Positions 18,222-64,000 of a DNA stretch of 64,000 bases are shown here, piece by piece. Below the pieces are notes generated by a model. The model ran no database searches and had not been told where the DNA came from. It saw only the letters and a program-made list of their open reading frames with translations. Made by a program: the position numbers and the translations under genes. This DNA comes from Myxococcales bacterium (GTDB lineage: Bacteria; Myxococcota_A; Polyangia; Polyangiales; Houyiibacteriaceae). Each line of letters begins with the position of its first letter. Within the stretch, counting starts at the first letter, position 1. The stretch is from contig JAHBWH010000007.1 of assembly GCA_019637115.1 (NCBI GenBank), forward strand, positions 1-64,000, in the 5' to 3' direction.

Positions 18222-18234
18222 TCTGGTTCGGGGG

Positions 18235-20835: not shown

Positions 20836-21050
20836 GGCGGCGACACCGTGAGGCGGCGACACCATGAGGGCGGCGACACCGTGAGGCGCCGACATCCTGA
20901 GGCGGCGACACCGTGAGGCGGCGACACCGTGAGGCGGCGACACCGTGAGGCCGCCGACATCCTGAGGCGCGACACGCGTGAGGCGGCGACTCCCGTGAGG
21001 CGGCGACTCCCGTGAGGCGGTGACGCAGGCTGCGACACCGTGAGGGGGCG
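20836..21050. repeat. 16-bp tandem repeat between convergent genes
   Basis: About 12 copies of CGACACCGTGAGGCGG and variants (CGACATCCTGAGGCG, CGACTCCCGTGAGGCGG) run without spacers between the stop of the phosphatase gene and the stop of the ABM-like gene. It is a simple minisatellite, not a CRISPR array. Confidence 0.85.
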
Positions 21051-44630: not shown

Positions 44631-45221
44631 TCATCGGTGTTCGGCGCTTTGGGTCTCGCGCAGCCGCGCTTCGAGCTGGTCGGCCTCGTCCCCGTCGAGG
44701 AGGCCGCGGCGTCGGGCATCGGCGAGGGCTCGCTCGATGTGCTCCGGGGAGAGGTGGGCGTCGATGACGTCGCGGATGGCCCGCGCCGGCTTCGTGATCG
44801 GGACCGGACCGAGCCAGGTGCGCTCTGCGTCTGGGACGTGCCCGTGGTGGAGTACCAGGCCCTCGGGCACGCGGAGCCTTCGCCCTCGCCATTCCTCGGG
44901 GACCGTGAGGTGTACGTGCTTCGGCAGGACGTCCGACAGGTCGTGGTAGCAGAGCGCGGTCTCGTGTGAGAACACGCCGGCCTGCCCGGCCCAGAGCCAG
45001 CACTCGACGAGGTGCTCGTCGTCGCTCATCGGGAAGTGGACCAGGCGGTAGACGCCGCGGCGGACGCGGCGGATGCGACCGGCCTTGAGGTGCTTGTAGA
45101 GCAGCTGTGGCGAGTAGCCGGCCTCCGCCGCTTGCACGGTGGTGAAGTAGCCGGCCTGAAGCTCGGCCGTGGCGTAGAGCGCATCCCAGCTGGGCGAGGT
45201 GGCATCGGGCATCGGGCTCAC
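44631..45221 (-). CDS. AbiEi-type antitoxin coupled to a DUF1016 nuclease
   Basis: 196 residues. Complete AbiEi-like protein: helix-turn-helix AGYFTTVQAAEAGYSPQLLYKHLKAGRIRRVRRGVYRL (about 20-60), then FPMSDDEHLVECWLWAGQAG, FSHETALCYHDLSDVLPKHVHLTVP and RTWLGPVPITKPARAIRDVI. The GTG at 45221 overlaps the DUF1016 stop by four bases. No AbiEii follows, so its partner may be the DUF1016 gene itself. Confidence 0.85.
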   Translation of the reverse strand: MSPMPDATSPSWDALYATAELQAGYFTTVQAAEAGYSPQLLYKHLKAGRIRRVRRGVYRLVHFPMSDDEHLVECWLWAGQAGVFSHETALCYHDLSDVLPKHVHLTVPEEWRGRRLRVPEGLVLHHGHVPDAERTWLGPVPITKPARAIRDVIDAHLSPEHIERALADARRRGLLDGDEADQLEARLRETQSAEHR

Positions 45222-46282: not shown

Positions 46283-46329
46283 GGGTGCTCCGAGAATGAG
46301 CCGGAAGGAACGTCCGGCGCGACTCAATG

Positions 46330-46344
46330 TAAACCTACGGTTTA
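46330..46344. promoter_or_regulatory. Palindromic operator candidate for DUF1016-abiEi
   Basis: TAAACC-TAC-GGTTTA, perfect six-base arms, in an AT-rich stretch 48 bases upstream of the DUF1016 start and 110 bases upstream of the divergent AbiEi gene. AbiEi proteins bind inverted repeats, so this is the likely control site. Confidence 0.55.
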
Positions 46345-46453
46345 GTTTTGCGCAAGTGTCCAAAGTCGGTCCGATGTCCCAGCCGGTGCAGGAGTCGGCT
46401 CTACTCCGCTGAGGGCGTGGGCCTGGGGCTACGCCCAAGAATACCCACGAGGC

Positions 46454-47176
46454 GTGTCCCAGCGAGGAGATCGACTGGCTCTACTTCTTGCCATCAAGAT
46501 GACGCTCTACCGGTTGAAGCAGAGCGGCGCCATCGTCACGCCGAGGCGGGACTTCTTCGTCGTGGTGCCGAGGGAGTACCGCGCGGCCGGCTGCCCGCCG
46601 GCGAGCTGGTTCATCGACGACCTCATGCGTCACATGGGGCGGCGCTACTACGTCGGGCTGCTCACGGCGGCCGCGCTCCACGGGGCGGGGCATCAGCAGC
46701 CCATGGCCTTCCAGGTGATCGTGGACTCGGCCAAGCGCGACATCGAGGTGGGGCGCGTCCGCATCGACTTCCACATGAGCAGCGTCTTCGATGGCGCGGC
46801 CACACAGCCCATGCAGACCGAGACCGGCACGATGCAGGTCGCGACGCCCGAGACGACCGCCTTTGATCTCGTGCGCTTCCCGGCCGCAGCGGGGTACTGG
46901 AGCAAGATCGCGACCGTCCTCTCGGAGCTGGCGGAGAAGCTCGACCCCGAGGCGCTCGCCGCCGGCACCGCGCGCATGGCTCGGACGGACGTGCAGCGCC
47001 TCGGCTGGCTCCTCGACTGCGTGGAGCAGCCGGACCTCGCGGGCGCCCTCGCCGCCGCGGTTGAGGGCAAGCGCCTGCTGCCGACCCCGCTCACGGGGGC
47101 CCGCGAGTCGGCGGGCGCTCCCCTCGACCCCCGCTGGCACGTGCTGGTCAACGACGACGTGGAGCCCGACCTGTGA
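46454..47176 (+). CDS. AbiEi antitoxin with degenerate N-terminus
   Basis: From a GTG at 46454. PRRDFFVVVPREYRAAGCPPASWFIDDLMRHMGRRYYVGLLTAAALHGAGHQQPM and ETTAFDLVRFPAAAGYW are the core of the AbiEi antitoxin C-terminal domain (type IV systems). The winged helix that should occupy the first 60 residues is short and unusual (RLALLLAIKMTLYRLKQSGAIV), so the 5' end may be truncated or frameshifted. Its stop overlaps the AbiEii start (GTGA). Partner is truncated, so the pair is probably inactive. Confidence 0.78.
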   Translation: MSQRGDRLALLLAIKMTLYRLKQSGAIVTPRRDFFVVVPREYRAAGCPPASWFIDDLMRHMGRRYYVGLLTAAALHGAGHQQPMAFQVIVDSAKRDIEVGRVRIDFHMSSVFDGAATQPMQTETGTMQVATPETTAFDLVRFPAAAGYWSKIATVLSELAEKLDPEALAAGTARMARTDVQRLGWLLDCVEQPDLAGALAAAVEGKRLLPTPLTGARESAGAPLDPRWHVLVNDDVEPDL

Positions 47177-47595
47177 TCCCGAGAGCGAGCATCACCGCGT
47201 GGCGCAAGGCCGCGCCCTGGCCCGACAACACGCAGGTGGAGCAGGACCTCGTGCTCTCCCGCGCGCTCGTCGAGCTCTTCCGCCGCCCCGCGTTCGCCGA
47301 GGGCGCCGTGTTCCGCGGCGGAACGGCGCTGCACAAGCTCTTCTTCGATCCGCCCGGTCGCTACTCCGAAGACATCGATCTGGTGCAGCGCACGGCGGGG
47401 CCGATCGGCCCGCTCGTCGACGAGATCCGCGCCCCCCTCGACCCCTGGCTCGGCAAGCCGAAGTGGAAGGCCGGCCAGGGCCGCTTCACTCTGTACTACC
47501 GCTTCGACACGACCTTCACGCCCGTCGTGCAGATGCGCGTGAAGATCGAGATCAACACGCGCGAGCACGGCTGGTGGCCCCTCTGCGCCAGGTAG
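47173..47595 (+). CDS. AbiEii nucleotidyltransferase toxin, C-terminally truncated
   Basis: 140 residues against roughly twice that for complete members. FRGGTALHKLFFDPPGRYSEDIDLVQ holds the nucleotidyltransferase GG-T and D-x-D residues; IEINTREHG follows. It then ends abruptly (WWPLCAR) where unrelated nuclease sequence in the opposite direction begins, about 47590. AbiEii toxins modify tRNA acceptor ends with nucleotides. This copy lacks the C-terminal half and is probably dead. Confidence 0.8.
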   Translation: MIPRASITAWRKAAPWPDNTQVEQDLVLSRALVELFRRPAFAEGAVFRGGTALHKLFFDPPGRYSEDIDLVQRTAGPIGPLVDEIRAPLDPWLGKPKWKAGQGRFTLYYRFDTTFTPVVQMRVKIEINTREHGWWPLCAR

Positions 47596-49937: not shown

Positions 49938-51104
49938 CTACGACGAGGCGGGATGGCCAACTGCATAGACCTCCGTCCAGGGCCGAACTTCGAACGTCTT
50001 GCCTTCGTCACGCACCACGACATCCAGGAGGCGGACACAGCTACCGGCTTCGAAAGGCGGGAGGTGCTGGCCGACTGCTGCGTCGTACACGACGTTGACC
50101 TCACGCCCGCTCGTCTCGGCGAGGAAGCCGTTGGGCGACGGCTCTGCGCTGACCGTCACCTCGAGGTCCGTCGTACCCGCGCGCGGGCGCCCAAGGCTTG
50201 CCTGGTACGCCCGCCAGCCGGCCGCACAGCGGGCGCGGGCGGGACAGTAGCCGCAGTCCTCGCCGGGGCGAGCTTCCGCCGGCGTGTCGGCCAACAGCCG
50301 CTTTGCGTCGTCGATGCTTTCTTCGAGGCGCCGCTCCGCAGCGAGCAGCTCCGCCTCGCCGATCCGCCACTCCGACCGCTCGTTCAGGTACTGGACTACC
50401 AGGCGTGCTGGTCGGAACCCTGTCCTGCGCCACCAGAGCACGCCGTACAGCTTCAGTTGCATCTCGTGCTCGGCCTTGCGCTTGCCCGTCTTGAAGTCGA
50501 CGACCTGCACGTCGCCGTCGACGAGCTCAACGAGGTCGATGATGCCGCGAAACGGCAGTGCAGGATGATCCACCTCAACCTCGCTGACTGCCCCACGCTG
50601 CTCGAGAAGCTGCATGGGTTCAACTGAGCTCGAGGGGGCGGCGCTTGCCCCGGTGGTCCGGGGCGCGGCGTCCAGAGGTGTGTACTGCTCGCGGAACAGC
50701 CGAATCGCGCGGTTGGCGAGTTCTCGTGGTGGGGTGCGAAGGACGAAGAAGGGGCCTGACCGGGGGTGACGCGCGAGTCGATCATTCCACTGGTCGACGG
50801 CTCGCGCGAAGTGGCCCCAGAAGTCGACTTCAGCAACGGCCTCCCTGAAGGCCGGCGAGGTGATGCTCGGAAGCCCGCGCTTCCCCAATGCCCGAACGAG
50901 CAGCTCGATTCCCTCGTGCACGATGGTGCCCTCGAGCGCCTTCGGGTGCGGTCGCTGCGGGAATCGGCCGTGTTCCCCCCACTCCGAGTGGAGGAGCTGC
51001 CACTTGCGCGGGCAGGCGCCAATAGCCTGGAGGCTCGAGAAGCTGAAGTGGTCAGGAGGCGCGGCCCAGCTGGTCGGCGCCTCCAGCTGGTAGAAGCTGG
51101 TCAT
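49938..51104 (-). CDS. Cas4/RecB-like PD-(D/E)XK nuclease with Fe-S cluster motif
   Basis: 388 residues. SLQAIGACPRKW has the first Cys (about 31); GIIDLVELVDGDVQVVDFKTGKRK (about 188-212) is the nuclease core with D and DxK; CGYCPARARC (about 284-293) supplies three more Cys, completing a Cas4/AddB-type 4Fe-4S site. A small 80-residue C-terminal domain follows. Such nucleases process DNA ends behind a helicase. It is last gene of the six, overlapping the 1940-aa helicase stop by ATGA. Confidence 0.88.
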   Translation of the reverse strand: MTSFYQLEAPTSWAAPPDHFSFSSLQAIGACPRKWQLLHSEWGEHGRFPQRPHPKALEGTIVHEGIELLVRALGKRGLPSITSPAFREAVAEVDFWGHFARAVDQWNDRLARHPRSGPFFVLRTPPRELANRAIRLFREQYTPLDAAPRTTGASAAPSSSVEPMQLLEQRGAVSEVEVDHPALPFRGIIDLVELVDGDVQVVDFKTGKRKAEHEMQLKLYGVLWWRRTGFRPARLVVQYLNERSEWRIGEAELLAAERRLEESIDDAKRLLADTPAEARPGEDCGYCPARARCAAGWRAYQASLGRPRAGTTDLEVTVSAEPSPNGFLAETSGREVNVVYDAAVGQHLPPFEAGSCVRLLDVVVRDEGKTFEVRPWTEVYAVGHPASS

Positions 51105-54100
51105 GGCGTCGATCCGTCTGGGAGCTGCAGCTGTCGAACGGCTTCGGGGAGGTCGTGAACGAGCGTGAAGGCATCGAGCTCGACCACCTCTTGGAATGCG
51201 AGCTGAGCGGCGCCGGTGACATCCGAAGGCCGGAGCGTCGGGTCCACCAGCGGATGATGGACGTCGAGCCAGACTCGCCCGCTGGCGGCTTCGAACTGCA
51301 TCGGGACGACCACTCCGTCTGTCGTGACGGCTTCCTGAACCGAGATCCCCCGCAGGCCCAGGTACTCGCGCAACCCGATCAGGGACTGCGCCTTGTCGGC
51401 ATCACCGACAGCGGGGACCTCGCCCGTTCGCACATGGCGAAGCAATGCCAGTGCGAGGTGCCGGTCGAGCGACGCGTGGATCCAGTTGTTGCCGTAGTGC
51501 CGGATGCACCGGTAGCAGGACGACGAACAGTCGCAGTCGTCCAGCAGCTTCTCTGTGGCATCGAGGACCTGCTCGAGCGCATCCCCGACCGCCCGCGCAT
51601 ACCCGGCTCCGCCGGGAAGCAGGTCGTATAGGTAGAGCTGGGCCTCGTCGGTGCGTCCGCCGAGCACTGGCGCCCACCAGCCCGAAAGCTCCCCTTCGTC
51701 GATCTGCAGCTCGCGAGAGGCCGCAAGAGCAATGGCTTCGACCAGCGACGTCAGCGCCATGCGTGCTGCACGGCTGAGCAAGCCTTGGGTCGTCGGCGTG
51801 CCGAGGCGCATGGGGTCGCCGACCTTCAACCGCAGCAGCAACGCGTCCGTGGGGAAGCGGTGGCCGAGGTAGAACGGCCCGTGCGCGACGCCGACGCAGA
51901 TCGCGCCCTTCTCCAGGGGATGACGATGCTGAACGGGGTTGCCGCCCTTCGTCAGCGTCGTGTTGGTGAACCCCGGGCCGTACTCTGGCTCCGAACGGCC
52001 GCAGTCCGGGCACACGCGGAAGCCACGCTCGCCGACGCCCTTGTTCACGACCGCGAGCATCCTCGGCCCAGTCCAGATCCGGAGCCGGCCAGCGCAGGCT
52101 TCCAGATGCCAATCTTCTGGCGGATCCTGTACTTCGAGCCGCGCGCGATCCGTCATTCCCGCATAGGTGATGGCCTGCCCGCGATCGACCTCTCGCTTGG
52201 TGTTGATATCCGGCGCGAAGCCCGCCGGCGTGATGAACTCCGCGTGCGCGACCTGGTCGCTCCCGCAGCAGGGGCAGAGCGTCATCGCCGAGGCCGAGGG
52301 GTCCAAGCTCACGAAGCTGCATGCTCGGCACGCCGTGTACGGCTGGCGCCGCGACAGCGTGGGTTCCGGCGTCGGCTCGTAGGGTGAGAACAGGGCAGCG
52401 GACTCGAACCGCCACTTGTCGATGGTGAGGCTGCGACCCGGCGCGTACTCGGTCAGCGCAAGTTGCAGGTCACGCTGGGGCTCGTAGTCGAACGTCCGGC
52501 GACCGGTCGGATCACCTGGCCGCCGCGGCTTGGAGACCCAGAACGACACGACGTCGGTGGGAAAGGCGTAGCGCGGGAACACGGCGCGGCCGATGAGCGT
52601 CTGCAGTAGCTCGTCCTCGAGGCGGCGTTCGAGAGCTTCTCGTTCAAGCCCCTCCAGCTCGTCGCGCTTCGCGAACTCCTCGACGGGCAGAACGTCGCGC
52701 AGTCGCGCCTTCAGGCGTGGCACCGCCTCAGCTATCGTCTGCTCAACTTTGGGGATCGCCTCGTCGAGACCATACGAGAACGTCGGCGCCCAGTGGCGCA
52801 GTTCTTCTCGTAGCGTGGCCTCGTTGTCGGTCAGCCAGGCCTCAAGGCGCTCCAGCGAACACGGATGGGCCTCGGAGAGAAACTGCTCCACTGTGCCAAG
52901 GGACTCGAAGAGGATGTAGGCACTCGAACCGGTGTCGGTCGGCACCCGCTCATGGAAGAAGCGCTGCACCAGGTACGCGTGGATGTGGCGCTCCAGGACC
53001 TGCTGGTTCTCCACGTAGACGATCGGGGCCCGCACATCGCCCGAGATGATTGCCGCGGGATGCTCGAAGAAGTGCGAGTCGTGCGAGGTGCCGTGCGCGT
53101 ACGTCACGACCGAGGCAATGGAGCGCCCGCGGCGGCCGGCGCGACCAGCTCGCTGCTGGTAGTTCGCGACATGCGGCGGCACGTTCCGTAGGGCGACGCC
53201 CGACAGTGCCCCGATGTCGATGCCAACCTCCATCGTCGTCGTGCAGCTGAGGACGTCGATGGGGGGCTTGCCGTCCAACGGGATGTCCTGGAACCGGAGC
53301 TCGTACTCCTCCACCTTGTTGAAGGCGCTGTCATCGGCGTTGCCGGTGAGCTGAGCCGAGTGCTCGGCCGCCGAAAGCCCAAAGGGCTCGAGCGACGCTG
53401 GTTCGAAGGCACGAAGGACCTGGTCGCGGTAGAAACCTGTCCGGGCGTCCAGGTAGGCCGGGTCGGCTTCGACCAGCCGCCCGCAGCATCCAGGGCAGAT
53501 GTCCTCAAGGGATTCCGGGTGGATCCGACCGCAGTCCACGCAGCGCAGCCACGACGCATCGAGGCGTAGATTCAAGCTCAACCCGAGTGGCCGCAGGTAG
53601 TAGAGGTCGCCCTCGAAGTCGAGGACCTCGCTGTTTCGCACGAGCGCTTTGAACCAGTCGGCGACCTTGGTAGCGGCGTCCTCGTCGCCCCCCAAGACTC
53701 GAAGGACGTATTCGTCGAGGCGATTCGGCAGCACCTGGTTCATGAGCTCGGCGTTGATGCCTACAGGGCCCGCCCACCCCTCTCCCAAGTCCCGGAGCTC
53801 CGCACCGTCGGGTCGAAAGCTCCGACGTTCCAGGTGAAGCCGCACCCACGATCGAAACAGGACGCGGATCGCTTCGTCGTCGAGCCCAACGGCCGGGAAG
53901 TCCTCGAAGACGTGGTCGAGGTCCGGGTCCTCCTGGATGGTTCCCAGAGCCAACGACGGCAGGGAGTAGTAGCGATCGGTCAGCTCGCTGAAGAGCGCCT
54001 GTGCGAACGAGCTCGTCGGTCGAAGCCCACCTCGGTTGGCGAGCTTCATCGCCTCCTTGAGCGACTTGCCCTTCACCCGACGAAGGTGGTTGTGAAACTC

Positions 54101-56923
54101 GACCTCCTCGGCTGACGGGAAGAGGTCGTAGCCGCGGTTTCCACAAAGCCACACCACCGCGGGATACAGCCAGTGCATCCCCGTCAGCCCCTCCTGCTCT
54201 CGCAGCTCGTGAGCGGCGAGAGCGATGACCTGCCTGAACAAATCGCGCGCGTGGCTGTGCTCCAGAGCTGGAGCGAGGCGGGCAGCCTTCTGCCGGCCAT
54301 CGCTGAAGACGAGCACCTTCCTGCCATGGTTCGGCAGCTTCGGGTCCAGCTTCTGCGGCGCTTGCTCAGCGAACTGAGCCTCGATGAGTGCCGTGAATGG
54401 CTGCTCGCCACGCGTCCGGAAGTCGTAGATCCGTGCACGGGACGGCGCGCTGGGCTGGCACATCGCACAGCGCCCGAACTCAGGCTGGCGGCCACCGTCG
54501 CCATCCACGCAGATGTAGAGGCTTCGGACCTCGTCGTCCGCGTACCGGACGTGCGGGTCGAGGTAGCCAGTCTTGAGGTGAACGCGCAGCTCCTCGGTCC
54601 GCTCCGGGTACCGAGGCGTGACCGGCAAGAGCTGGAAGCGAACCAGGTTGCCTTCCGTCTCACCCCAGAGGAACTCGATGGTGTCGAGTGTTCCCGACTC
54701 AGCGTACGCAAGCACGTACGGCGTCCCACACGAGCGGCACGACGCGAGCTCGAAGACACGAGATCCGCAGGCGTCACAGGTCGCGCGAGGAAACGAGAAG
54801 AGCTTCCCGACGACGGCCTCTTCACTCGGCTCGGCTTGGCGACCCGAGCAGCAGGGATTCACGCATGCGTAGAGACCGTGCAGCCCACGGAACATGCCGT
54901 GCACCCGCGTGGGTACGAGGCCCGGGCTGTCCGGCTTCTTCCGGGCCAGCGTACCCAGGGCGAGCAGCGCTTGCAGCGCACGCTCTTTCCTCGGGTGACC
55001 TGGGAAAACTCGGTCTGCGAGCTCGCTCAGGGCCCTGGCATTGCCGGCGGCCTCGAGCACCAGTTGATTGACCATCGGGCGCTGTGACAACGCATCGTGC
55101 AGGGCCGCCAGGAGGCTTGCCTCGTCTTCTGACGAGGCCGACTGCCCGTAGAACGCGAGCACCGGAGAGAGGCACCGCGCGAGCGCCTCGCCAGTCAGTG
55201 CCCGGTTGAGCGCGTTCAAGTCAACCGATGCGAGGAGGTCCGCCTCTTCCCCAGTCGCGGGAGCCGCCGGCTCAGGGACTTCACGTGTGCCCGTGATGGC
55301 AGTGAAGTCGTCGGGCGTCTTGCCCGACAGGTCGGCTGCGAAGCGCCGGATGTTCGACAATGCCGCAGCGTCCGTGCCCAAGGAGGCGCTCGTGGCGATG
55401 ACTCGCAACTTGTCCGGCCGATCGTGAATCCCGAGGCGTGCGCGAAGCCGCCGGAGCAGGAACGCCACCTCCGCCCCCTTGGCCCCGCGGTACATGTGGG
55501 CTTCGTCAAGAACGAGAAGAAGTTGTGCGTCGTCCCGCTCGAGCCAGCGGCGCGTCTCGCTGAAGATGGGGCGTTCGAACGGCCTCATCAGCATGTACTC
55601 GAGCATCGAGTAGTTCGTAACCAGGACGTCCGGGGAGTGGCCCGGTCGGGTGCCGACGCCGTGCACCATCTCGTGCCGCGTCAGGAGCTCACGGTCGCCC
55701 GGGGAGGTGTGCAGGCGGCGCTCCCAGTGGTGCTTCGTGTACTCCGTGCCCGCGCGCTCACCGGTCTGATAGGTCGCCCGACGTTCTTCATTCTTGGCGA
55801 AGAAGGCCCGCAGGTCCTTCGCGGGGTATCGTCCGAGTTCACGCAGCCGCTGCTCGAGGTCGGCGTCCATGTTCAGGTAGTACTCGAGCAGCGGCGCCAC
55901 GCGTTCGCTGTCCTTCCCTCCCTTGCGCGGCCCGGGATACGGCGTGCGCCCCGTGTACATCCCGAAGCGCGGGAACCGAGCCGACGGCAGCTTCGAGAAC
56001 TCCTCCGCTACAGCCTGCTCGCCGAAGAGCAAGCGAAGCCGCGACAGCTGGTCGTTCACGAGCGCATTCATCGGGTAGAGGATCAGCGCTCGTACGGCAG
56101 GCAGCGCGAAAGAGTCGGGCCGCTCGTGTGCTTCATCGTAGAGGGAGCCGAGCATCGGCACGAGGAAGCACTCCGTCTTGCCCGATCCCGTTCCCGTGGC
56201 GACGACGATGTCCTTGCCCTCGACGAGGAACGAGGTGAACGCGCGCTCCTGGTGTCCGTACATGCTGGGGTAGAGGATTCGACGCTCCTCCCCGCCGGCG
56301 CTGGCCCGGGTCGGGGTCATCGCCAGGCTCGAGAAGAACCTGCCGACATGGTCGGGCAGGCCGAGCTCATCGTAGCCCCGAGGCGACGACGCGTAGCGCG
56401 TGGTCGTCTCGATGAACGGCTCCTGGGCGAGCAGGTGGCCGCCGGCCTCGGTCTCGAGCAGTCGGCGACGTGCGCGAACTAGCGTTGGATCGCTCAGGGG
56501 GTAGGCGCTCTCGATGTATCCGCGCAGCGAGTCACTCAGCCGCTGGACCAGCCGGGTGGGCGTGAACCGGTCATCCGTGATCGGCGGGCGCTCCAGCGCC
56601 GGTGGAGGTGAACTCGGCTTGGTCACCCGGACGCGTGCGCGAGGACGCGAGCGCTCGATAGGCTTCACAGGTTCGCTGGCACGGTCGACCCAGGCGGCCA
56701 GTGCCGCATCGACCGCATCGCTCATTCCAACGAGGCGGTCTCCGATGGACTCGGCGGTCTCACCCTCGAGAAGAGCGTCCAGGAAAGCGGAGGACACCTC
56801 TGTGACGCCGGAGAAGTCGAGAGTGATCCCTGGCTCGAGCTTGCGTCGCAGAAAGGCCGCGTCTCCGACGTCCAGGAGGCGCAGCGCATCGTCGGTGTAC
56901 TTGGCGAGCTTGAGTGCGGTCAT
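51101..56923 (-). CDS. Giant DEAD/DEAH helicase with N-terminal STAS-like and C-terminal DUF1998 regions
   Basis: 1940 residues from the ATG at 56923, chosen because it overlaps the preceding stop (ATGA). Residues 10-70 are STAS-like (ITLDFSGVTEVSSAFLDALLEG). Helicase: ATGTGSGKTECF (Walker A, 242-252), LLVLDEAHMYRG (about 475), SCTTTMEVGIDIG and YQQRAGRAGRRGR (about 1220-1265). Several zinc-knuckle segments (CDACGSR...CRSCG near 700, CVDCG...CPGCCGR near 1130, CRAC...CPCCGS near 1540) separate them. CDCSSSCYRCIRHYGN (about 1795) marks DUF1998. Size and order recall DruE of Druantia and DUF1998 helicases of other phage-defence systems, but the STAS-like start and the neighbours differ. It likely translocates on DNA. 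Confidence 0.9.
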   Translation of the reverse strand: MTALKLAKYTDDALRLLDVGDAAFLRRKLEPGITLDFSGVTEVSSAFLDALLEGETAESIGDRLVGMSDAVDAALAAWVDRASEPVKPIERSRPRARVRVTKPSSPPPALERPPITDDRFTPTRLVQRLSDSLRGYIESAYPLSDPTLVRARRRLLETEAGGHLLAQEPFIETTTRYASSPRGYDELGLPDHVGRFFSSLAMTPTRASAGGEERRILYPSMYGHQERAFTSFLVEGKDIVVATGTGSGKTECFLVPMLGSLYDEAHERPDSFALPAVRALILYPMNALVNDQLSRLRLLFGEQAVAEEFSKLPSARFPRFGMYTGRTPYPGPRKGGKDSERVAPLLEYYLNMDADLEQRLRELGRYPAKDLRAFFAKNEERRATYQTGERAGTEYTKHHWERRLHTSPGDRELLTRHEMVHGVGTRPGHSPDVLVTNYSMLEYMLMRPFERPIFSETRRWLERDDAQLLLVLDEAHMYRGAKGAEVAFLLRRLRARLGIHDRPDKLRVIATSASLGTDAAALSNIRRFAADLSGKTPDDFTAITGTREVPEPAAPATGEEADLLASVDLNALNRALTGEALARCLSPVLAFYGQSASSEDEASLLAALHDALSQRPMVNQLVLEAAGNARALSELADRVFPGHPRKERALQALLALGTLARKKPDSPGLVPTRVHGMFRGLHGLYACVNPCCSGRQAEPSEEAVVGKLFSFPRATCDACGSRVFELASCRSCGTPYVLAYAESGTLDTIEFLWGETEGNLVRFQLLPVTPRYPERTEELRVHLKTGYLDPHVRYADDEVRSLYICVDGDGGRQPEFGRCAMCQPSAPSRARIYDFRTRGEQPFTALIEAQFAEQAPQKLDPKLPNHGRKVLVFSDGRQKAARLAPALEHSHARDLFRQVIALAAHELREQEGLTGMHWLYPAVVWLCGNRGYDLFPSAEEVEFHNHLRRVKGKSLKEAMKLANRGGLRPTSSFAQALFSELTDRYYSLPSLALGTIQEDPDLDHVFEDFPAVGLDDEAIRVLFRSWVRLHLERRSFRPDGAELRDLGEGWAGPVGINAELMNQVLPNRLDEYVLRVLGGDEDAATKVADWFKALVRNSEVLDFEGDLYYLRPLGLSLNLRLDASWLRCVDCGRIHPESLEDICPGCCGRLVEADPAYLDARTGFYRDQVLRAFEPASLEPFGLSAAEHSAQLTGNADDSAFNKVEEYELRFQDIPLDGKPPIDVLSCTTTMEVGIDIGALSGVALRNVPPHVANYQQRAGRAGRRGRSIASVVTYAHGTSHDSHFFEHPAAIISGDVRAPIVYVENQQVLERHIHAYLVQRFFHERVPTDTGSSAYILFESLGTVEQFLSEAHPCSLERLEAWLTDNEATLREELRHWAPTFSYGLDEAIPKVEQTIAEAVPRLKARLRDVLPVEEFAKRDELEGLEREALERRLEDELLQTLIGRAVFPRYAFPTDVVSFWVSKPRRPGDPTGRRTFDYEPQRDLQLALTEYAPGRSLTIDKWRFESAALFSPYEPTPEPTLSRRQPYTACRACSFVSLDPSASAMTLCPCCGSDQVAHAEFITPAGFAPDINTKREVDRGQAITYAGMTDRARLEVQDPPEDWHLEACAGRLRIWTGPRMLAVVNKGVGERGFRVCPDCGRSEPEYGPGFTNTTLTKGGNPVQHRHPLEKGAICVGVAHGPFYLGHRFPTDALLLRLKVGDPMRLGTPTTQGLLSRAARMALTSLVEAIALAASRELQIDEGELSGWWAPVLGGRTDEAQLYLYDLLPGGAGYARAVGDALEQVLDATEKLLDDCDCSSSCYRCIRHYGNNWIHASLDRHLALALLRHVRTGEVPAVGDADKAQSLIGLREYLGLRGISVQEAVTTDGVVVPMQFEAASGRVWLDVHHPLVDPTLRPSDVTGAAQLAFQEVVELDAFTLVHDLPEAVRQLQLPDGSTP

Positions 56924-58989
56924 CGCGCGTCCTCCACGTGCCAGTCGTCGGTGTTCAGCTCGAGAAGCGCATCGTGCCGACATCCGTCGGGGACGACGAG
57001 CATCAGCCCTCGCATGGCTCGAGTGAGCCCCACGTAGAGAAGACGCCGCTCATGTCGCATGCGCTCGTCGAAGAGCTCGGGATCGTCGAAGTCCTCCGCC
57101 ACCGGATACGTCCCGTCGTGGAAGCCTGCCGCCACCACGATCGGGAACTCGAGGCCCTTCGCGCTGTAGAGGGTGATCACCTTGACAACGTCCGCAGCGA
57201 GGTCGAGCTCACGGCCGGCAAAGTAGCGCGCCGGCAGCCCAGCGTCGGAGAGAGATTGCGCGAGGTTTTCGCCAACGGCTCCGGCGGGAACGAGGACGGC
57301 GGCTGCACTCGGACGCAGATGGAGATGCCGCGACATCTGCCGCACGAACCGTGCGATCCACTCCGCCTCGTTTGCTTCGTCGACGCCGCGAACAAGCACC
57401 GGTAGCGGCCCCTCATGGACACTGTTCGATGCCTCCAGCTTCTCGTCCGTCTCGGGCCGGAGCATTGTGAAAGCCGCGCGGTCGATCTCCTTGGTCGAGC
57501 GGTAGTTTCGACGAAGGACGGCTGTGCGGCCACGGAACTGAAGCCGAGGATGCGCTGCCGACCAGGTGTAGTTACGCGAGTAGATGGACTGCTTCGAGTC
57601 GGCGGCGAAGAACAGGCCCTCTGGTGTGCGGGCCACCTCGGCCATGAGCGCAAGTGCCGTTGGGCTGAGATCTTGCGCTTCGTCGACGAACACAAAGTCC
57701 CATTGGAGGTTGGAGCTCCCCGCGCGGACGACCTCGAGCGCCTCCTTTCTCAGGGCCGGAAACCGCTCGCCTGCATGCTCGAGGAACACTTGCCGTAGCT
57801 CCCACAGGGTCTCACGGAGGCCTTCGTTGAAGGCCACGCCCCGGCCTGGCCGCGGCGCGGCCTTGTACTCATCGACGGTGCGGAGATCTCGGCCGTCGAT
57901 GATCCAATCGAACTCCTCCACGATGTACTTGTCGGAGAGCCGGTCGAGCGCCCGCTTCCTGCGTTTCGCCTCGAAGGCCGAGGGGCTCGTCGGTACGAAT
58001 GCGCTCCTGAGCTTCTTCAGTCGCTTCATCGCGTCGTAGTCGGACTCCAACGCGCCGACCTTGCGCCGCTCCGAGACGACCTCGCGCGCGATCTGGTCGA
58101 CCGTCGCAACACGAACGCGAGCCATCTGCGCTGGGCTCAGGATCTGCTCGAGCAGCTGCCGGGTTACGGTAAGGAGGGCGCGGGTGTAGGTTGTGAAGAG
58201 GACCGTCTCGTCGCCCGTGGCCCCGGCGCTCTCGAGCACCTCCTTGACGCGGTAGAGCGCCACGGTGCTCTTGCCGGTTCCGGCCCCCCCGCGAACCATC
58301 GTCGGACCCTTCATCGCCCAGCGCGTGAGCCGTACCTGGTCCTCATCCAGCCGGAGCAGGAAGCCCAGGAGGTCGCCCTCCTTGTACCGAACGAGATGCT
58401 CGGTAGACGGAACGACGAGGTCCGGCTGTTGGGCGACCACCTCCAGGCTCGGCGGAAACATGGCGTCCAGAACCCGCGCAAGTACATCGCCGCCAACCGG
58501 GGCCTCGAGCAGGTCCTCCTCCGTCTTGCAGCGGAGAAGGAACGGGTAGGCTCCGGCGGGGACGCTCTGCTCTTTCAGCCAGTCCTTCGTGATCGCGATG
58601 GGCAAAGCCTTCACGGTCGATGCGGGCTCGAAGGTGAAGCTCGGTGGAGTAGCAGCCTCGAGCACGTCGTCGAGGTCGTCGTCGAAGTCCGGCGGGAGCT
58701 GCGGGGACTGGTCGCCATCGGGAATAGCCCGGTAGGTGTCTTCCTGGCGCCGGCGTACGCCGAGCAGGCTGACCCAGTCGTCCCCAAAGCGATAGAACAC
58801 GCGATGGTCACCGACCCGAAGCCGATAGATGCCATCCCCGCCCTGGAGCTTCTTCTTCAGCTTTCCGTCGGGAAACGGATCGGTGACGAGCCAGTTGATC
58901 TTCTCCCACAGTGAGGCGGCGCGCTCCGCCGGGAACACCAGCAGTTCGCGCATACATGTGGGCTTGATGGTGATCTGACGCTTGCTCAT
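56920..58989 (-). CDS. RelE-like domain fused to a UvrD/Rep-type helicase
   Basis: 689 residues. Residues 1-90 look like a RelE/ParE-fold toxin domain: LWEKINWLVTDPFPDGKLKKKLQG and GIYRLRVGDHRVFYRFGDDWVSLLGVRRR. Residues 220-680 are a superfamily 1A helicase: VRGGAGTGKSTVALYRV (Walker A, 234-241), FVFVDEAQDLSPTALAL (about 434), RRNYRSTKEIDRAAF, TLYSAKGLEFPIVV (about 610) and RRLLYVGLTRAMRGL. Overlaps both neighbours by ATGA. The RelE-like part may bind RNA or ribosomes, or be a repurposed fold. Confidence 0.9.
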   Translation of the reverse strand: MSKRQITIKPTCMRELLVFPAERAASLWEKINWLVTDPFPDGKLKKKLQGGDGIYRLRVGDHRVFYRFGDDWVSLLGVRRRQEDTYRAIPDGDQSPQLPPDFDDDLDDVLEAATPPSFTFEPASTVKALPIAITKDWLKEQSVPAGAYPFLLRCKTEEDLLEAPVGGDVLARVLDAMFPPSLEVVAQQPDLVVPSTEHLVRYKEGDLLGFLLRLDEDQVRLTRWAMKGPTMVRGGAGTGKSTVALYRVKEVLESAGATGDETVLFTTYTRALLTVTRQLLEQILSPAQMARVRVATVDQIAREVVSERRKVGALESDYDAMKRLKKLRSAFVPTSPSAFEAKRRKRALDRLSDKYIVEEFDWIIDGRDLRTVDEYKAAPRPGRGVAFNEGLRETLWELRQVFLEHAGERFPALRKEALEVVRAGSSNLQWDFVFVDEAQDLSPTALALMAEVARTPEGLFFAADSKQSIYSRNYTWSAAHPRLQFRGRTAVLRRNYRSTKEIDRAAFTMLRPETDEKLEASNSVHEGPLPVLVRGVDEANEAEWIARFVRQMSRHLHLRPSAAAVLVPAGAVGENLAQSLSDAGLPARYFAGRELDLAADVVKVITLYSAKGLEFPIVVAAGFHDGTYPVAEDFDDPELFDERMRHERRLLYVGLTRAMRGLMLVVPDGCRHDALLELNTDDWHVEDAR

Positions 58990-59999
58990 GCCGGCGCCTC
59001 CTCCTTGAGGTCGAGCCCGAGGCGGCGGCAGAGCGTGTCGAGCACATCGTCAGCGCGAGAGAGGGGGATCGACCATTGTTGGTGGTTCTCGGCTCGCACT
59101 GGAGCGGCGAGAGACGCGAGGTATCGGTACTCGGCCCGTGGCAGCCACTCGCGAAGTCGCAGGTGGGCAGACGTATCGTCACGCTCGACGGCCGCAGGCA
59201 CGGGGCGGTCGACCTCGCGTGCCACTGCGAACAGCGCCCGAGTCGCCTCGTCGGCCATCAGCGACACGAAGGGCGCGCTCGAGGGTGTTTCGCCAGGTTC
59301 TGTCCAGGCCCAGACCCAGCGACCGAAGGACGTCCGAGCACGCCAGAGTCGCGGCGGCTCGTCGGACTTTCGACGCCACCGTGGGCCGTCGTCGGTCAAG
59401 ACGAGACACTTCCAGTCCAACGCGCCGTCGCGCTCGAGGCTGCCTCCGGATTCAGGCTCCCACTGCAGTCGTTGGTCGAGGCCATCCAACCACGCTGGAC
59501 CTGCGACCGGAGCCAGGTCCAAGCCTGCCCAAGCTTCCGGCGACAGGACCACGCCGCCCATGGATTGCACCGCGCTCTCCGCCTCGGCGACCGCATTGGG
59601 GGCGAATCGATGGATGCGCCGCACGCCGTCGACGACGAGGTCCCCCGGGAGCATGGGGCGGAGCCGGTGGCATGGAAGGCTGCACACGAGGCGGTGGGAC
59701 GTGCCGTCCAGACGGATCGCGCGGAGAGGGCTGATGTGGAGCACGCCGCCGCTCGATGCGGAGATGTCGCCCTCGTACTCGAGGGCATCGCAGAGCTCGC
59801 GCAGGCGAGCCCGAGAGTGCTCCGCTTCGCCACCGAGTGCGCGTTCGAGTCGCTGCAACATGGTCCAGCGAGCGCAGCTGCTGCGCGCGGTCACTTCAGC
59901 GCGCATGAGATCCATCAGGGTCTCGTCGCGCTGCAGGTCCCCCCAGCGCCCGAGAGTCCGCTCGGCAATGTGGTCGGGTGTAGCGATGACCAGCTTCAT
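58986..59999 (-). CDS. Unrecognised 337-aa protein of the six-gene cluster
   Basis: Starts MKLVIATPDHIAERTLGRW; its ATG overlaps the S24-domain gene by one base (TGATG) and its stop overlaps the helicase start (ATGA). It is soluble, with helical N-terminal 100 residues (LRELCDALEYEGDISASSGG) and beta-rich middle and end (LVCSLPCHRLRPMLPGDLVVDGVRRIHRF, LWRARTSFGRWVWAWTE, then LRLREWLPRAEYRYLASLAAP). I know no family. Conserved context suggests a core part of the system. Confidence 0.8.
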   Translation of the reverse strand: MKLVIATPDHIAERTLGRWGDLQRDETLMDLMRAEVTARSSCARWTMLQRLERALGGEAEHSRARLRELCDALEYEGDISASSGGVLHISPLRAIRLDGTSHRLVCSLPCHRLRPMLPGDLVVDGVRRIHRFAPNAVAEAESAVQSMGGVVLSPEAWAGLDLAPVAGPAWLDGLDQRLQWEPESGGSLERDGALDWKCLVLTDDGPRWRRKSDEPPRLWRARTSFGRWVWAWTEPGETPSSAPFVSLMADEATRALFAVAREVDRPVPAAVERDDTSAHLRLREWLPRAEYRYLASLAAPVRAENHQQWSIPLSRADDVLDTLCRRLGLDLKEEAPA

Positions 60000-62722
60000 C
60001 ACACGCCCTCCGCGACGTCCCGGAGGAATGCAATGAGCAACTCGTCCTGGCCGAGAACCTCCTCCAGGTCCCACACCTTCAGGGGCAGCCTGCTGCGCCT
60101 GCGGTGCTCCGCCCAGCCGAGGCCAGTGCTGATCAACGCGTTGTCGACGCCGAAGCGCAGACACACGCCGTCGATCCACTCGAGAAGGTCTTCGCCGAGC
60201 GCCGGTTGCAGCTCCTCCAGCATTACGAGCACCCGCTTGCAGCGGCGACCGATACCCTCGGACCGCCTCTCCGTGACCAGCAGCCTGGCGGCCGCCGCAT
60301 GCAGCGGAGGTTCCTCCGGAAGGTCCGCGATGGGTTCGACCTCGTAGCCAAGGCATTGCCCAACGGGCTCGAACCACATCGGCAGCAGCTGCGCGAATGC
60401 GCCGCCGCGGCGCCGGACGAAGTCACTCTTCGCCCTCACCAGCTCGCCGAGCTTCTCGCCCACGCCGTTCACAGTCGCATGCCGTTCGTGCTCCAGAAGG
60501 AGCGAGCCGAGCTCCGCGAGGTCGAGAACGAGATCGCCCAGCAAACGGCGTTCGCGGCGCCCTCGCGTCAGGCTGAGAAGCCTGCCCATGTCGAGCTGGC
60601 CGGTAGTGTCCAGCTCGACGGTCGCGAGGTAGTCGTCGGCGACCTCACGCCAGAGCACGCGGACGCCCCATCCAGGGGGACCTTCGATGACCAAGTCCTC
60701 CCGCTGCAAGAGCGCAAGGTCGCCACGCCAGATGCGCATTGCCGTGTTCGGTGCGCCCGTGTGCAGGGTTCCCGCGACCATGGCGCTCCATGATGCTCGC
60801 GGCGGTGCCGACAGGTCCGTGCTCACCTCGAAGGGAAGGTGGGCGGGCTGAATCCGGGTGCGCTGATGCAGCAGCGTGCAGAAATAGCGCCCAACGGGCA
60901 GGCTCGAGAGCCCGATGGTCGCGGACGTGCCTGCTGGCAGGGCAACGCGACGCGGGCCATCGGGCCCGTGAACGAAGATCTGCGCCTCGCCGTCGACCTC
61001 TGCATCGTACCCATTCGCCGCGACGGTCACGGAGGCCGTGCCCTCGCTGCACGCCGCGAAGGCAGCGAAGGCATCTCCTCGCGGGGTCGAGCGCCATTCG
61101 TCGGGCCAGCTGGGCAGCCCGAACGAGAGGCGCGGAGCGAGGTCACCGAGGCGGAGCCCGAGACGCTCAATGGCCTGAACCAGCTCAGGACCGGGTGCAG
61201 AAGGCAACGCCAGCTCGGCGAGGTACCAGCCGTCCGCGAGAGGGGTTGCCGCGATGGAGTGGTCCGCGGGCTCCCACAGTCCGGGCGGGAGCAGCAGACG
61301 GTATTCTTGCCCCGGCGATAGTTGATCCCCGCTCAACAGCCGGCCGACTCCATCGACTCCGACGCGGAAGGCGGTGACGTGATCGTGTGGCAGTCCGGCC
61401 ACGTCGAGGGCCGAGAGATCGACGTCCGGGTCGTCTTCGAAGCCGTGGGCGCGGCAGGTCCACGCCCCCTCCGACGGCAGCACAGGCACCTGCACCGGGC
61501 GCAGCCTCGCGTTGGACGCGAGGGTCTGCCGGCTTTCGCCCGTGACCCCGCGGACGACGAGAAGCTTCACGAATGTCCAGAGGCCGAACAGCGGCCCGAG
61601 CTCGAGGTGTGGACCGCCCGCACCCATGTCGAGGCACACGAGCTGGCTGTTCCACGCCGCGGTGTTCGGCTTCTCGTCCCCTTCGGCTGTTGGCGAAGGT
61701 GTGGACTCGAAGAAGCGCGCGGCTCGTGCCGAAAGGCGCTCGTGGACCTTTTCGAGCGCGTCCCTGGTGTCCAGCTCCCGGCGGCCTGGCCGTCGCAGGG
61801 GCTTCGGGCGGCGCGCGTACTCGTCGGGCGACAGCGGCTGGATGACCTTCGCAACGACGGTCAACGCCTCCTCGTCCTCTACCTGGAGCTCGATGTCCGG
61901 ATAGCGCTCCTTGTCCGGGTTGAGCGAGACAAGCGTGATCTGACGGTGGCGCCCTTCCTCGTCACGCTGATCCGCCACGTACTTCTTGACGGCGTAGCTG
62001 CCTGTCTCCGGGTCACGAAACGAGCCGCGTACCAGGACGCTGAGAAGCTGCTTCGTGCCCGATGGCCACAGCTCGAAGATCGCGTAGCCACCGTCGACGA
62101 GGCCGCTGCGGCCATCGTCCATGCTGTGCCCTTCGACCTGGGCCACGAACATCCGCGAGTTCAAGCGCCGCCGGTTGGACACGCGGATCCACCCGAGCGT
62201 TTCAATCAGCTGCTCCTGGGCTCCCGGCCCCCACTCGCCGGCCGGCTCGGAGGCGGCCGCAGCCTTCAGGCTGTGGAGAGGGAGGTGCGTCGTGTACTTC
62301 TCCAGCTCGCCCACTTCGTCTTCGATGGCCGGGTGCTTGGAGAGCTCGGCTGCCGCGAGTCGTACTTCGTCGCCGACCAGCACCAGACGCGGGTCAGCCG
62401 GACACAGGACGCACCGTCGGCCGAAGTGCCGCCCGATCGCCGCGAGCGCCGTGCTCAGGTCCGCGCTCCCACTGCGGCTGCCATGCAGCTCTCGATGGAG
62501 GGCGTCGTTGGCGACCAGGTCTTCGGCTCGAATCCAGCGCTGCCAGGGCGTCTGACGGAAGCGCGCGTCCTCTCGGAGTCGTGCGTCCTCACCGAGGTTC
62601 CAGTGCGTAGTCTGGAGCAACTCGGGCTCCGACAGGGACGTGAGGGAGCGGCCGAGCCGGTCCAGCAGTGTGTCGAACGACGGACGACGCGCGGACCGAC
62701 CGAGCTGGAAGGTGCGTGTCAT
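59999..62722 (-). CDS. 907-aa protein with embedded LexA/S24 peptidase-like domain
   Basis: Start at 62722, overlapping the McrC stop by one base (TGATG). Residues 1-180 are unrecognised (helical, with CVLC near 104). Residues 180-275 resemble the S24/LexA serine-lysine peptidase fold: NSRMFVAQVEGHSMDDG with Ser200, GLVDGGYAIFELW, VLVRGSF and SYAVKKYVAD with Lys246/247, the usual catalytic spacing. Residues 300-700 are beta-rich (WTFVKLLVVRG, GQEYRLLLPPGLWEP), and the last 200 are helical. No transmembrane or helicase motif. A damage- or invasion-sensing self-cleaving subunit would fit, but cleavage is not shown. Confidence 0.82.
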   Translation of the reverse strand: MTRTFQLGRSARRPSFDTLLDRLGRSLTSLSEPELLQTTHWNLGEDARLREDARFRQTPWQRWIRAEDLVANDALHRELHGSRSGSADLSTALAAIGRHFGRRCVLCPADPRLVLVGDEVRLAAAELSKHPAIEDEVGELEKYTTHLPLHSLKAAAASEPAGEWGPGAQEQLIETLGWIRVSNRRRLNSRMFVAQVEGHSMDDGRSGLVDGGYAIFELWPSGTKQLLSVLVRGSFRDPETGSYAVKKYVADQRDEEGRHRQITLVSLNPDKERYPDIELQVEDEEALTVVAKVIQPLSPDEYARRPKPLRRPGRRELDTRDALEKVHERLSARAARFFESTPSPTAEGDEKPNTAAWNSQLVCLDMGAGGPHLELGPLFGLWTFVKLLVVRGVTGESRQTLASNARLRPVQVPVLPSEGAWTCRAHGFEDDPDVDLSALDVAGLPHDHVTAFRVGVDGVGRLLSGDQLSPGQEYRLLLPPGLWEPADHSIAATPLADGWYLAELALPSAPGPELVQAIERLGLRLGDLAPRLSFGLPSWPDEWRSTPRGDAFAAFAACSEGTASVTVAANGYDAEVDGEAQIFVHGPDGPRRVALPAGTSATIGLSSLPVGRYFCTLLHQRTRIQPAHLPFEVSTDLSAPPRASWSAMVAGTLHTGAPNTAMRIWRGDLALLQREDLVIEGPPGWGVRVLWREVADDYLATVELDTTGQLDMGRLLSLTRGRRERRLLGDLVLDLAELGSLLLEHERHATVNGVGEKLGELVRAKSDFVRRRGGAFAQLLPMWFEPVGQCLGYEVEPIADLPEEPPLHAAAARLLVTERRSEGIGRRCKRVLVMLEELQPALGEDLLEWIDGVCLRFGVDNALISTGLGWAEHRRRSRLPLKVWDLEEVLGQDELLIAFLRDVAEGV

Positions 62723-64000
62723 CACGATCCACCTCCCATACTGGCGAGCGTTTCGCCCTCGGGGAGGTGGAGCCCGAAGCCCTCTCGAACGATGGTCTCG
62801 AGTTGCTGTGCGAGCGCAGTCCTGCCCGAGCTCGTCCACAGGCGATGACGAAGGTCGACGAAACGAACGCCCACGGTGCCCACCCGCGTGCCCGCGTGTC
62901 GAGCCAGCGCATCGAGATCGCGCGTCGATACGCCGTCGGTGTGGGGGTAGAGCAGGAAGGCGCGATCGCAATCGTAGCGATGCAGGTAGGCGTAGAGCTG
63001 GTACAGGTCGTCGTTGCTCGGGCGCGCAGCGTGCTTGTCCGAGAGGCGCTTCCACTTCGTGTCGATGATGAGAGTGCGACGGCCGCCCGGGCCGTCGAGG
63101 GTGAAGAGCAGGTCGGGCGCGAGGCGAAGGACGTCCTCGCGGCCGGCTCCGTCACCGTCGCGATAGAGGCTGAAACGGTGTCCCTTGGCCTGCGGGAAGA
63201 GGCTTGCTCCGGCGACCCGTGGAATCACGTGTGTCGCGAGGAACGCGGCGATGTACCGCTCGAAGACCTGGTCCATGTCGAAGAGCAGGGAGAAGGTCTC
63301 CACGTCTCCAGCCCTGGCGTCCGCGGCCTGGCCCTCGATGAGCATCCGCGCGAAGGCGTAGATGTCTTCGAAGCGTTCGTTCTGACGGTTGAAGACGGGA
63401 TCCGGCTCGTGGAGCCGTGCCGACTGCTCGGGGACGTTGTCGAGCAGCGCGAGAACCTGGTTGCACTTCACATGCAGCGCTGCCGGCAAGGTACGCCCAG
63501 CGAGCAGTCGACAGGCCTGCTTCAGTCGACGCGAGATGGGCGTCGCTTCCGAGAGGACGTCATGTCGGCAGTAGAAGCGATGCTTCTGTGCGCTGTTGCG
63601 GGCGACGTGACGTGAGAGCAGAAGCTTGCCCCGCAGCGTGCCGAGGTTCGACTCTTCGGCCAGATACCCTCGGTCCACCCCTCGCCGGAGCTCGTAGAGC
63701 GCGCGGTCGAGAAAGGCATCAACCAACTGGTCGTGGAGTGTGCCGCGCTTGAGCGACAGGTCCGCCAGTCCGCGTGCACGCACCGCCCCAAGGCCTCCGC
63801 GGAGCAGCATCTCCATGAGGTTGCATCGCGTGTCCTTGACGAAGCCCTCGTCGGCAGGCGCCTCGCGTTCGTCCGTCTTCGGAAGGATCTCCACCTGGAG
63901 ACCCGGGACCTGCATCACGCCGACCCACGGGCCAACCAGGCAGTAGTTCCGTCGCCAGCTGAAGATCGCGGACTCGCCCCGTTCCTCGCGCGCAGACTCC
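62722..64000 (-). CDS. mcrC: McrC-family nuclease subunit (5' end outside the window)
   Basis: The frame runs off the window end; about 425 residues are visible. It starts (in the window) with NYCLVGPWVGV and GLQVEILPK, the N-terminal McrC domain, then LLSRHVARNSAQKHRFYCRHDVLSE and ENERFEDIYAFARML, and a PD-(D/E)XK domain: APDLLFTLDGPGGRRTLIIDTKWK (D ... DxK). McrC partners McrB, a GTPase that translocates DNA. McrB should lie just upstream, outside the window. First visible gene of the six. Confidence 0.93.
   Translation of the reverse strand, partial: ESAREERGESAIFSWRRNYCLVGPWVGVMQVPGLQVEILPKTDEREAPADEGFVKDTRCNLMEMLLRGGLGAVRARGLADLSLKRGTLHDQLVDAFLDRALYELRRGVDRGYLAEESNLGTLRGKLLLSRHVARNSAQKHRFYCRHDVLSEATPISRRLKQACRLLAGRTLPAALHVKCNQVLALLDNVPEQSARLHEPDPVFNRQNERFEDIYAFARMLIEGQAADARAGDVETFSLLFDMDQVFERYIAAFLATHVIPRVAGASLFPQAKGHRFSLYRDGDGAGREDVLRLAPDLLFTLDGPGGRRTLIIDTKWKRLSDKHAARPSNDDLYQLYAYLHRYDCDRAFLLYPHTDGVSTRDLDALARHAGTRVGTVGVRFVDLRHRLWTSSGRTALAQQLETIVREGFGLHLPEGETLASMGGGS

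Follow-up and report, generated by a model that had tools for sequence, protein, structure and literature searches.

The operon and its recurrence

The window analyzed here runs from base 1 to base 64,000 of a 97,572-base contig (JAHBWH010000007.1) in the 8.9-Mb draft genome of a Myxococcales bacterium (GCA_019637115.1). A first-pass annotation of the sequence singled out six minus-strand open reading frames (ORFs) at the end of the window as a candidate new defense system, and these are present as reported, overlapping by 1 or 4 bases. They make up the 3′ half of a longer operon, which extends past the window and encodes, in order, an SNF2 helicase, a Type ISP-like methyltransferase, a DUF3644 protein, McrB, McrC, a protein with a LexA-like S24 domain, a homolog of the Druantia protein DruD, a helicase fused to a RelE-like domain (RelE-UvrD), DruE, and a Cas4/DruK-like nuclease. 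Seven successive genes, from McrB to the nuclease, are chained through overlaps of 1 base (mcrB/mcrC, mcrC/s24, and s24/druD) or 4 bases (druD/relE-uvrD, relE-uvrD/druE, and druE/nuclease); upstream of these, the DUF3644 and methyltransferase genes are followed by gaps of 63 and 108 bases, respectively, and the SNF2 gene overlaps the methyltransferase gene by 7 bases.

Beyond what chance would give, the same gene order recurs, to the extent that contigs cover it, in nine other genomes; the first-pass annotation had named as grounds for refutation that the six genes never occur together elsewhere, and this is not the case. A scan of the genomes of ~85,000 species with two S24 peptide patterns yielded seven loci, all with this order as far as their contigs reach. 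A second scan, of 317 genomes of the window's class, gave eight genomes with a match at E ≤ 1e-30; G281 and G472 repeat loci L042 and L045, G589 was taken as a repeat of L047 on the basis of matching coordinates, and the scan added two new copies (G585 and G533, the latter on two contigs) and two variants (G568 and G526). The Druantia-type cassette is thus present at 12 or more distinct loci, a lower bound because the scan was limited by its patterns, and it has an McrBC front in 10 of them, the window included. The nine further carriers are myxobacteria, Burkholderiales, and another proteobacterium, with 29–76% protein identity to the window genes; among them are the isolates Ramlibacter cellulosilyticus USB13 and Xenophilus sp. 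Marseille-Q4582, both Burkholderiales. McrB, McrC, the methyltransferase, the S24 protein, DruD, RelE-UvrD, and DruE are encoded at all 10 McrBC-type loci, the methyltransferase gene being incomplete in L047 and G533 and the RelE-UvrD gene interrupted in L044. SNF2 was found at all eight loci whose sequence reaches it and the nuclease at all eight with sequence past DruE (a count that includes G568); both ends of the operon were read in the window, G281, G472, G585, and, partly, L046. The DUF3644 gene (66153–67388, beyond the window on the same contig) was rejected as a core gene, being found in the window copy only.

McrC runs from 62722 on the minus strand to the window edge at 64000 and on to contig base 64134 (470 amino acids [aa] in full), so that the first-pass description of all six genes as full length has to be amended for this one; it matches the Pfam McrBC model at 206 bits and keeps a loose D.K[WY] motif in all 10 copies. 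An extension past base 64000 had been suggested as a way to find mcrB, and the gene lies there (64134–66089, 651 aa); its product matches Pfam AAA_5, with Walker A and MNTADR motifs in 10/10 copies and a Walker B pattern in 9/10. The McrB N-terminus of L046 (5498–8593) differs, matching PD-T4-1 and PDC-S02 models, which suggests a swapped recognition domain. The methyltransferase (67497–71573, beyond the window) has a Type ISP C-terminal specificity domain (214 bits), shares 40% identity with a Type ISP enzyme of Nostoc across 63% of its length, and retains NPPY and SAM motifs in 9 of 10 copies, the L047 copy being incomplete; the earlier statement that no methylase accompanies these genes is true within the window only. 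The SNF2 helicase (71567–76180, also beyond the window) resembles DrmD, DpdE, and BrxHI in its motor only. Its Walker A and DEAH motifs are seen in two of eight rows, the others ending before these motifs, and a strict motif VI in six of eight.

DruE (51101–56923, minus strand, 1940 aa) is a YprA-family helicase with Pfam DEAD and MZB (DUF1998) domains and a weak STAS-like stretch at its N-terminus, a DUF4325 match under the Pfam cut-off. Pfam agreed with the first-pass domain calls (McrBC; DEAD and MZB; UvrD and ParE; PDDEXK_1), the STAS-like and S24 matches being weak. In PADLOC, whose models were scanned protein by protein, independently of its system rules, DruE matches DruE1 at 1575 bits over most of its length; the best models of other DruE types reach 611–689 bits. 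Our phylogenetic analysis of 33 YprA-family proteins, made with a quick method, places the four full-length copies of the operon in one clade (SH-aLRT 100) nested in a group of eight (SH-aLRT 100) alongside four Druantia I proteins; the fifth Druantia I reference, from Meiothermus (L056), falls just outside this group and the ARMADA helicases elsewhere in the tree. All five Druantia I references were best matched by DruE1, and the other row labels come from annotated neighbors. Profile scores are 756–1,229 bits for the five references, 365–609 for other Druantia-typed rows, 165–254 for ARMADA-like rows, 242–396 for four untyped rows, and 35 for a DISARM DrmA (L101). The DEAH motif is present in 12/12 DruE rows and Walker A in 11/12. 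The window's genome encodes a second DruE-like helicase (L041, 13132–18402), closest to DruE3 models.

The 337-aa product of the gene two upstream of druE (58986–59999, minus strand), which the first-pass annotation had proposed as a search anchor, is a DruD homolog: hhalign aligned it over its full length (289 columns, probability 98.7, E 2.6e-16) with five DruD-position proteins, two of which are DruD by PADLOC (490–538 bits), one weakly so, and two via position only. The PADLOC DruD1 model matches the operon copies of L046 (6.4e-13), L047 (1e-10), L042 (0.0022), and, at 0.056, the window frame; it gave no match to the DruD-position proteins of G568 and G526. RelE-UvrD is encoded between DruD and DruE except in G568. 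The AlphaFold2 model of the DruD homolog has a mean pLDDT of 87, and Foldseek returned no match to it at E ≤ 0.001; a partial winged-helix at residues 17–91 was rejected (best Z 7.7, rmsd 3.1, 75 aligned), a score in the chance range.

RelE-UvrD (56920–58989, minus strand, 689 aa) combines Pfam ParE_toxin and UvrD domains, the latter of the UvrD/GajB type, and its residues 5–81 match a solved chain (1wmi_A, hypothetical protein PHS013; E 0.0006) that we take to be RelE. Walker A and DEAQD motifs are kept in 11/11 rows. In a tree of these proteins the operon copies group together (98/99), separate from ArmD, and the larger group adds two Myxococcota DISARM loci, two Pseudanabaena plasmid operons, and a Deinococcus BREX locus. 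At the DISARM loci (L100, 801–13350; L101, 2660–10523) the helicase gene lies beside those of DrmA and DrmB, after DrmD in L100, and its product is 41–44% identical to the window protein; in the Deinococcus plasmid BREX cluster (L051, 13836–15857) it is flanked by brxC and an N-6 DNA methylase gene. One Pseudanabaena plasmid (L050, 1–21787) encodes in line a DUF2357 (McrC-type) protein, SNF2, a probable methyltransferase, RelE-UvrD, and a YprA helicase, and a separate Druantia-like cassette faces this row. The operon ends with the PD-(D/E)XK nuclease (49938–51104, minus strand, 388 aa), which matches Pfam PDDEXK_1 at 84 bits and the PADLOC DruK and Cas4 models at 63.7 and 46.6 bits; the D-F/Y-K-S/T motif is present in 7/7 copies and CxxC..C in 5/7.

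The S24 hinge protein and the histories of the two blocks

The S24 protein (59999–62722, minus strand, 907 aa) stands at the junction of the two gene blocks and has two halves, an N-half (residues 1–300) with a LexA-like S24 Ser-Lys pair and a C-half (residues ~301–907) that is β-rich in a low-confidence model. Pfam detects the S24 domain weakly in the window protein (E 0.15) and at 1.4e-10 in a relative; Ser200 and Lys246/247 are invariant in an alignment of eight copies. A motif scan of 13 rows found the Ser in 11 and the Lys in 10, the rows lacking matches being an incomplete piece from G533, G568 (neither residue), and G526 (a variant Lys stretch). Ahead of Ser200 by 38 residues, a spacing that resembles that of LexA and UmuD, is an A/S/T161-G162 pair, possibly a LexA-like cleavage site, that is kept in 10/10 McrBC-type copies but in neither G526 nor G568. 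Pfam identified no DNA-binding domain in the protein. We rejected a relationship to DruB, DruC, or DruH, as hhalign gave no link above 40% to DruA, DruB, or DruC and there was no sequence or profile link to DruH. At three further loci (L006, L007, and L013) an S24 domain is C-terminal on proteins whose other domains resemble Type I R subunits or, weakly, helicases. Searches with the S24 protein in plasmids and viral contigs found no match, and megablast of a 12.8-kb stretch against phages found no similar DNA; there is thus no sign in these searches of transfer via known phages, viral contigs, or plasmids.

The two halves can have different ancestries. In 50-residue windows, the S24 proteins of L047 and L045 are 76–94% identical up to residue 300 and 12–43% identical beyond it, and the flanking proteins are 83% (McrC) and 51% (DruE) identical; the S24 gene of L047 therefore switches ancestry at residue ~300. 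Four other loci (L042, L043, L044, and L048) have an extra gene of ~1,510 aa between those of S24 and DruD (12589–17145 in L042) whose C-terminus repeats the S24 C-half at all four. Pfam, run on the L042 and L043 proteins, assigns a Sacsin/Hsp90-like ATPase to the N-terminus of both, and the L042 protein matches PADLOC TmtA (196 bits), presumably Tiamat. Compared in windows with the S24 protein that its own locus encodes, the C-half copy in L044 is 58–78% identical, with onset at the same residue ~301. In G585, a gene with Schlafen AlbA_2 and Fic-like C-terminal domains (L122, 428–3493; 1021-aa ORF) lies between those of McrC and S24.

The two variants have other front ends. G568 encodes a 742-aa protein corresponding to the S24 C-half, without the S24 motif, followed by DruD, DruE, and the nuclease, behind a Type III restriction–modification (R-M) pair (Mod 990 bits, Res 30 bits); divergent McrB-like (246 bits) and McrC-like (49 bits) genes adjoin this cassette. 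G526 encodes HmaB (1,341 bits) and HmaC (965 bits), then the S24 protein, DruD, RelE-UvrD, and DruE; HmaA was not seen on this contig, which starts inside a DUF3427-S24 frame (L126, 1–1032) just before HmaB.

To compare histories, pairwise protein distances were correlated between genes. Over all copies, the S24 protein, DruD, RelE-UvrD, and DruE correlate with one another at 0.92–0.98, a block that the nuclease tracks less tightly (0.64–0.86), and SNF2, McrB, and McrC correlate at 0.87–0.93; the methyltransferase correlates poorly with everything (0.16–0.51). Because the close group of L042–L045 and L048 inflates these values, the set was thinned by keeping a single row from each close group (6 rows, 15 pairs, 720 row permutations). 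In the thinned set the S24 C-half correlates with DruE at 0.97 (reached by 2/720 permutations), RelE-UvrD at 0.93 (6/720), and DruD at 0.86 (26/720), and McrB with McrC at 0.90. Across the blocks, the values are −0.09 for McrC and DruE (383/720), −0.12 for McrB and DruE (401/720), and −0.13 for the S24 C-half and McrC (432/720). The S24 C-half thus belongs firmly on the Druantia side, and the two blocks have differing histories. The S24 N-half correlates with McrC at 0.70 (20/720), McrB at 0.43 (117/720), and DruE at −0.07.

Proposed mechanism and alternatives

Our proposal, to which we give even odds, is that the operon acts as a composite defense against phages: through the S24 gene, restriction front ends that can be interchanged would be coupled to a helicase machine like that of Druantia I. 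The mechanism we propose is drawn by analogy with Druantia III. The front module (the SNF2 translocase, the Type ISP-like methyltransferase with its target-recognition domain, McrB, and McrC) would mark self DNA and would attack wrongly methylated DNA, making ends or gaps; the back cassette (DruD, RelE-UvrD, DruE, and the nuclease) would load on the resulting ends or single strands and degrade the DNA. The S24 protein would link the front end to DruD and DruE, with its C-half on the Druantia side and its exchangeable N-half probably on the restriction side, and may relay a signal through LexA-like self-cleavage. In the parts of PMC13192584 covered here, the sensor of Druantia III is likely to be DruH, which has three Ig-like domains, and DruE is a helicase-nuclease effector loading on intermediates that contain single-stranded DNA; subtype-specific partners are proposed to determine activation of the DruE core. 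The covered text of PMC12458937 predicts that the Vsr nuclease domain of Druantia I helicases is inactive, and therefore cutting would fall to a separate nuclease.

Several observations weigh against this proposal. The model of the S24 protein has a pLDDT of 58 overall, with a poor N-half, and the Ig-like matches of the C-half are all below Z 8 (best Z 7.9, rmsd 27, 166 aligned), too weak to name it an Ig-like fold. The strict helicase motif VI pattern is found in 6/11 RelE-UvrD rows and 7/12 DruE rows, some of the latter incomplete, and the RelE-UvrD gene of L044 (Xenophilus; 17558–21025) is split by ~0.8 kb carrying an opposite-strand ORF. Because G568 has neither the S24 motif nor RelE-UvrD, neither is required by every cassette. 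Over all copies the cross-block correlations are 0.41–0.82, and six thinned rows are few. When L047 is removed, the S24 N-half correlates with McrC at 0.46, DruE at 0.49, and RelE-UvrD at 0.53, so that its placement rests on one recombinant; the C-half still correlates with DruE at 0.95 and with McrC at 0.23. For SNF2, four of the six rows allowed a comparison; there it correlates with the front and the back block alike (0.70–0.93 with the back block) and is therefore not firmly assigned. Finally, mere neighbors would also show blocks with different histories.

This last point leads to the alternative that a Type ISP-like R-M and McrBC unit and a Druantia I-like unit are neighbors in a defense island, co-expressed and acting independently, with no physical coupling between them. 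The nearly unrelated thinned distance matrices of the two blocks are as this alternative would have them, as are the extra operon genes (DUF3644 in the window, the long ATPase-like gene at four loci, and the Schlafen/Fic-like gene in G585). However, the genes overlap and keep a fixed order in 10 loci, the block junction passes through one hinge gene, directly so in L047, and the S24 C-half accompanies the cassette behind three front types, and we regard independent action as rather unlikely. Less probable still is that the S24 protein is an SOS-type switch, a damage sensor rather than an adaptor, in which RecA filaments trigger self-cleavage and thereby arm or express the cassette. The invariant Ser and Lys and the A/S/T-G pair of the McrBC-type copies would suit such a switch, but the protein has no DNA-binding domain identified by Pfam, the co-variation of its C-half with DruE points to a protein partner, and the G568 protein is without the S24 motif.

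A bolder reading can be proposed, to which we give slightly less than even chances: a portable Druantia I-type effector cassette (the S24 C-half, DruD, usually RelE-UvrD, DruE, and the nuclease) may be plugged onto unrelated detectors (SNF2/Type ISP with McrBC, a Type III R-M pair, Hma, or the Tiamat-like ATPase) by swapping the N-half of the adaptor at one constant joint near residue 300. The locus bears on how DruE-type helicases outside type III are directed to DNA, as a partner gene that switches ancestry at one joint means that, in the laboratory, activation could be taken apart from effector function and either one exchanged. These arrangements suggest that bacteria may assemble phage defenses by fitting one shared weapon to different detectors.

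Other genes in and near these loci are side observations. The first-pass annotation described the 10 kb adjoining the operon as wreckage; among four frames checked, AbiEii is truncated and DUF429 matches half a profile, but YhcG and AbiEi look complete. The AbiEi antitoxin gene and the truncated AbiEii gene (profile positions 1–114 of 238) occupy 46454–47595, and the YhcG/DUF1016 PD-(D/E)XK nuclease, which matches PADLOC PDC-S02 at 424 bits, occupies 45218–46438 and is apparently intact. A 3062-aa protein with IgGFc-binding, PKD, bacterial Ig, and RHS repeats is encoded at 2882–12070. In L002, a large serine recombinase frame lacking the N-terminal part of its resolvase domain (16998–18272) lies just upstream of the operon.

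Relation to known defense systems

The least probable account of the locus, which we reject, makes it a divergent member of ARMADA type II (ArmA SNF2, ArmB methyltransferase, ArmC YprA helicase, and ArmD RelE-GajB): all four kinds of enzyme are shared and RelE-UvrD matches ArmD at 129 bits, but the helicases and methyltransferase belong to different lineages or families, as DruE clusters with Druantia I and not with ArmC, RelE-UvrD falls outside the ArmD clade and is encoded upstream of the large helicase instead of after it, the SNF2 protein matches ArmA at 26 bits only, the Type ISP methyltransferase has no match to the PglX-like ArmB of Klebsiella and Streptomyces, and the gene order differs. 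The ARMADA description, as far as its text was covered, names no McrBC, S24, DruD, or Cas4-like component (PMC12458937).

The likeness to Druantia type I is closer, as a DruE of the same clade is encoded with a DruD homolog directly or one gene upstream of it. The first-pass annotation held that the locus is unlike Druantia I–III, with extra genes and no DruABCD or DruH. The extra genes stand, and phmmer found no match to DruA, DruB, DruC, or DruH in the window, in L002 and L003, or in the other loci as far as they reach; however, the DruD homolog and the type I DruE mean that the implied unrelatedness to Druantia was wrong. Unlike Druantia I, the operon adds RelE-UvrD, the nuclease, the S24 protein, and McrB and McrC with intact motifs. 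With Druantia III (DruH-DruE) it shares a DruE helicase and a β-rich, possibly Ig-like partner. As in Type IV McrBC systems, adjoining, overlapping genes encode an AAA+ GTPase McrB with Walker A and MNTADR motifs and a PD-(D/E)XK McrC, but this pair is embedded between a Type ISP-like R-M pair and the Druantia cassette. HmaB-HmaC and the Type III pair precede the same cassette in G526 and G568 and lie outside the operon of the window.

The first-pass exclusion of DISARM and Dpd holds. In contrast to DISARM, with its separate DrmA and DrmB genes, the operon has one fused DruE with MZB, and Pfam found no PLD family, and so no DrmC-type nuclease, among the ten operon proteins. Dpd systems are defined by 7-deazaguanine/TGT genes, of which Pfam found none among the same ten proteins, and the PADLOC DpdJ, DpdF, and DpdE matches are helicase motor matches. 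Judged from its sequence, the operon fails to qualify as complete Druantia I, ARMADA II, DISARM, or Dpd and has the sequence features of McrBC.

A general association of McrBC with YprA-type cassettes is already known from the texts covered: McrB branches are prevalently associated with a DISARM-like system (PMC11090510), and a DISARM-like cassette with a YprA-like helicase often accompanies canonical McrBC (PMC12458937, which also defines ARMADA). Both state the association without gene lists in the text covered; the words S24, LexA, DruD, Cas4, and Hma are absent as whole words from the main text of PMC12458937, and our literature search, whose coverage ended short of the supplementary tables of that paper, found no description of this gene set. 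Likewise absent from the texts covered are the S24 hinge, the type I identity of DruD and DruE, the nuclease, and the swapping of front ends. The earlier proposal of a new defense system thus survives as a candidate operon that matches no named system whole, but one that is a hybrid of known kinds. It gives the McrBC/YprA association mentioned in passing in the covered parts of PMC11090510 and PMC12458937 a concrete operon and connects defenses of the Type ISP, Type III, Type IV, and Druantia kinds.

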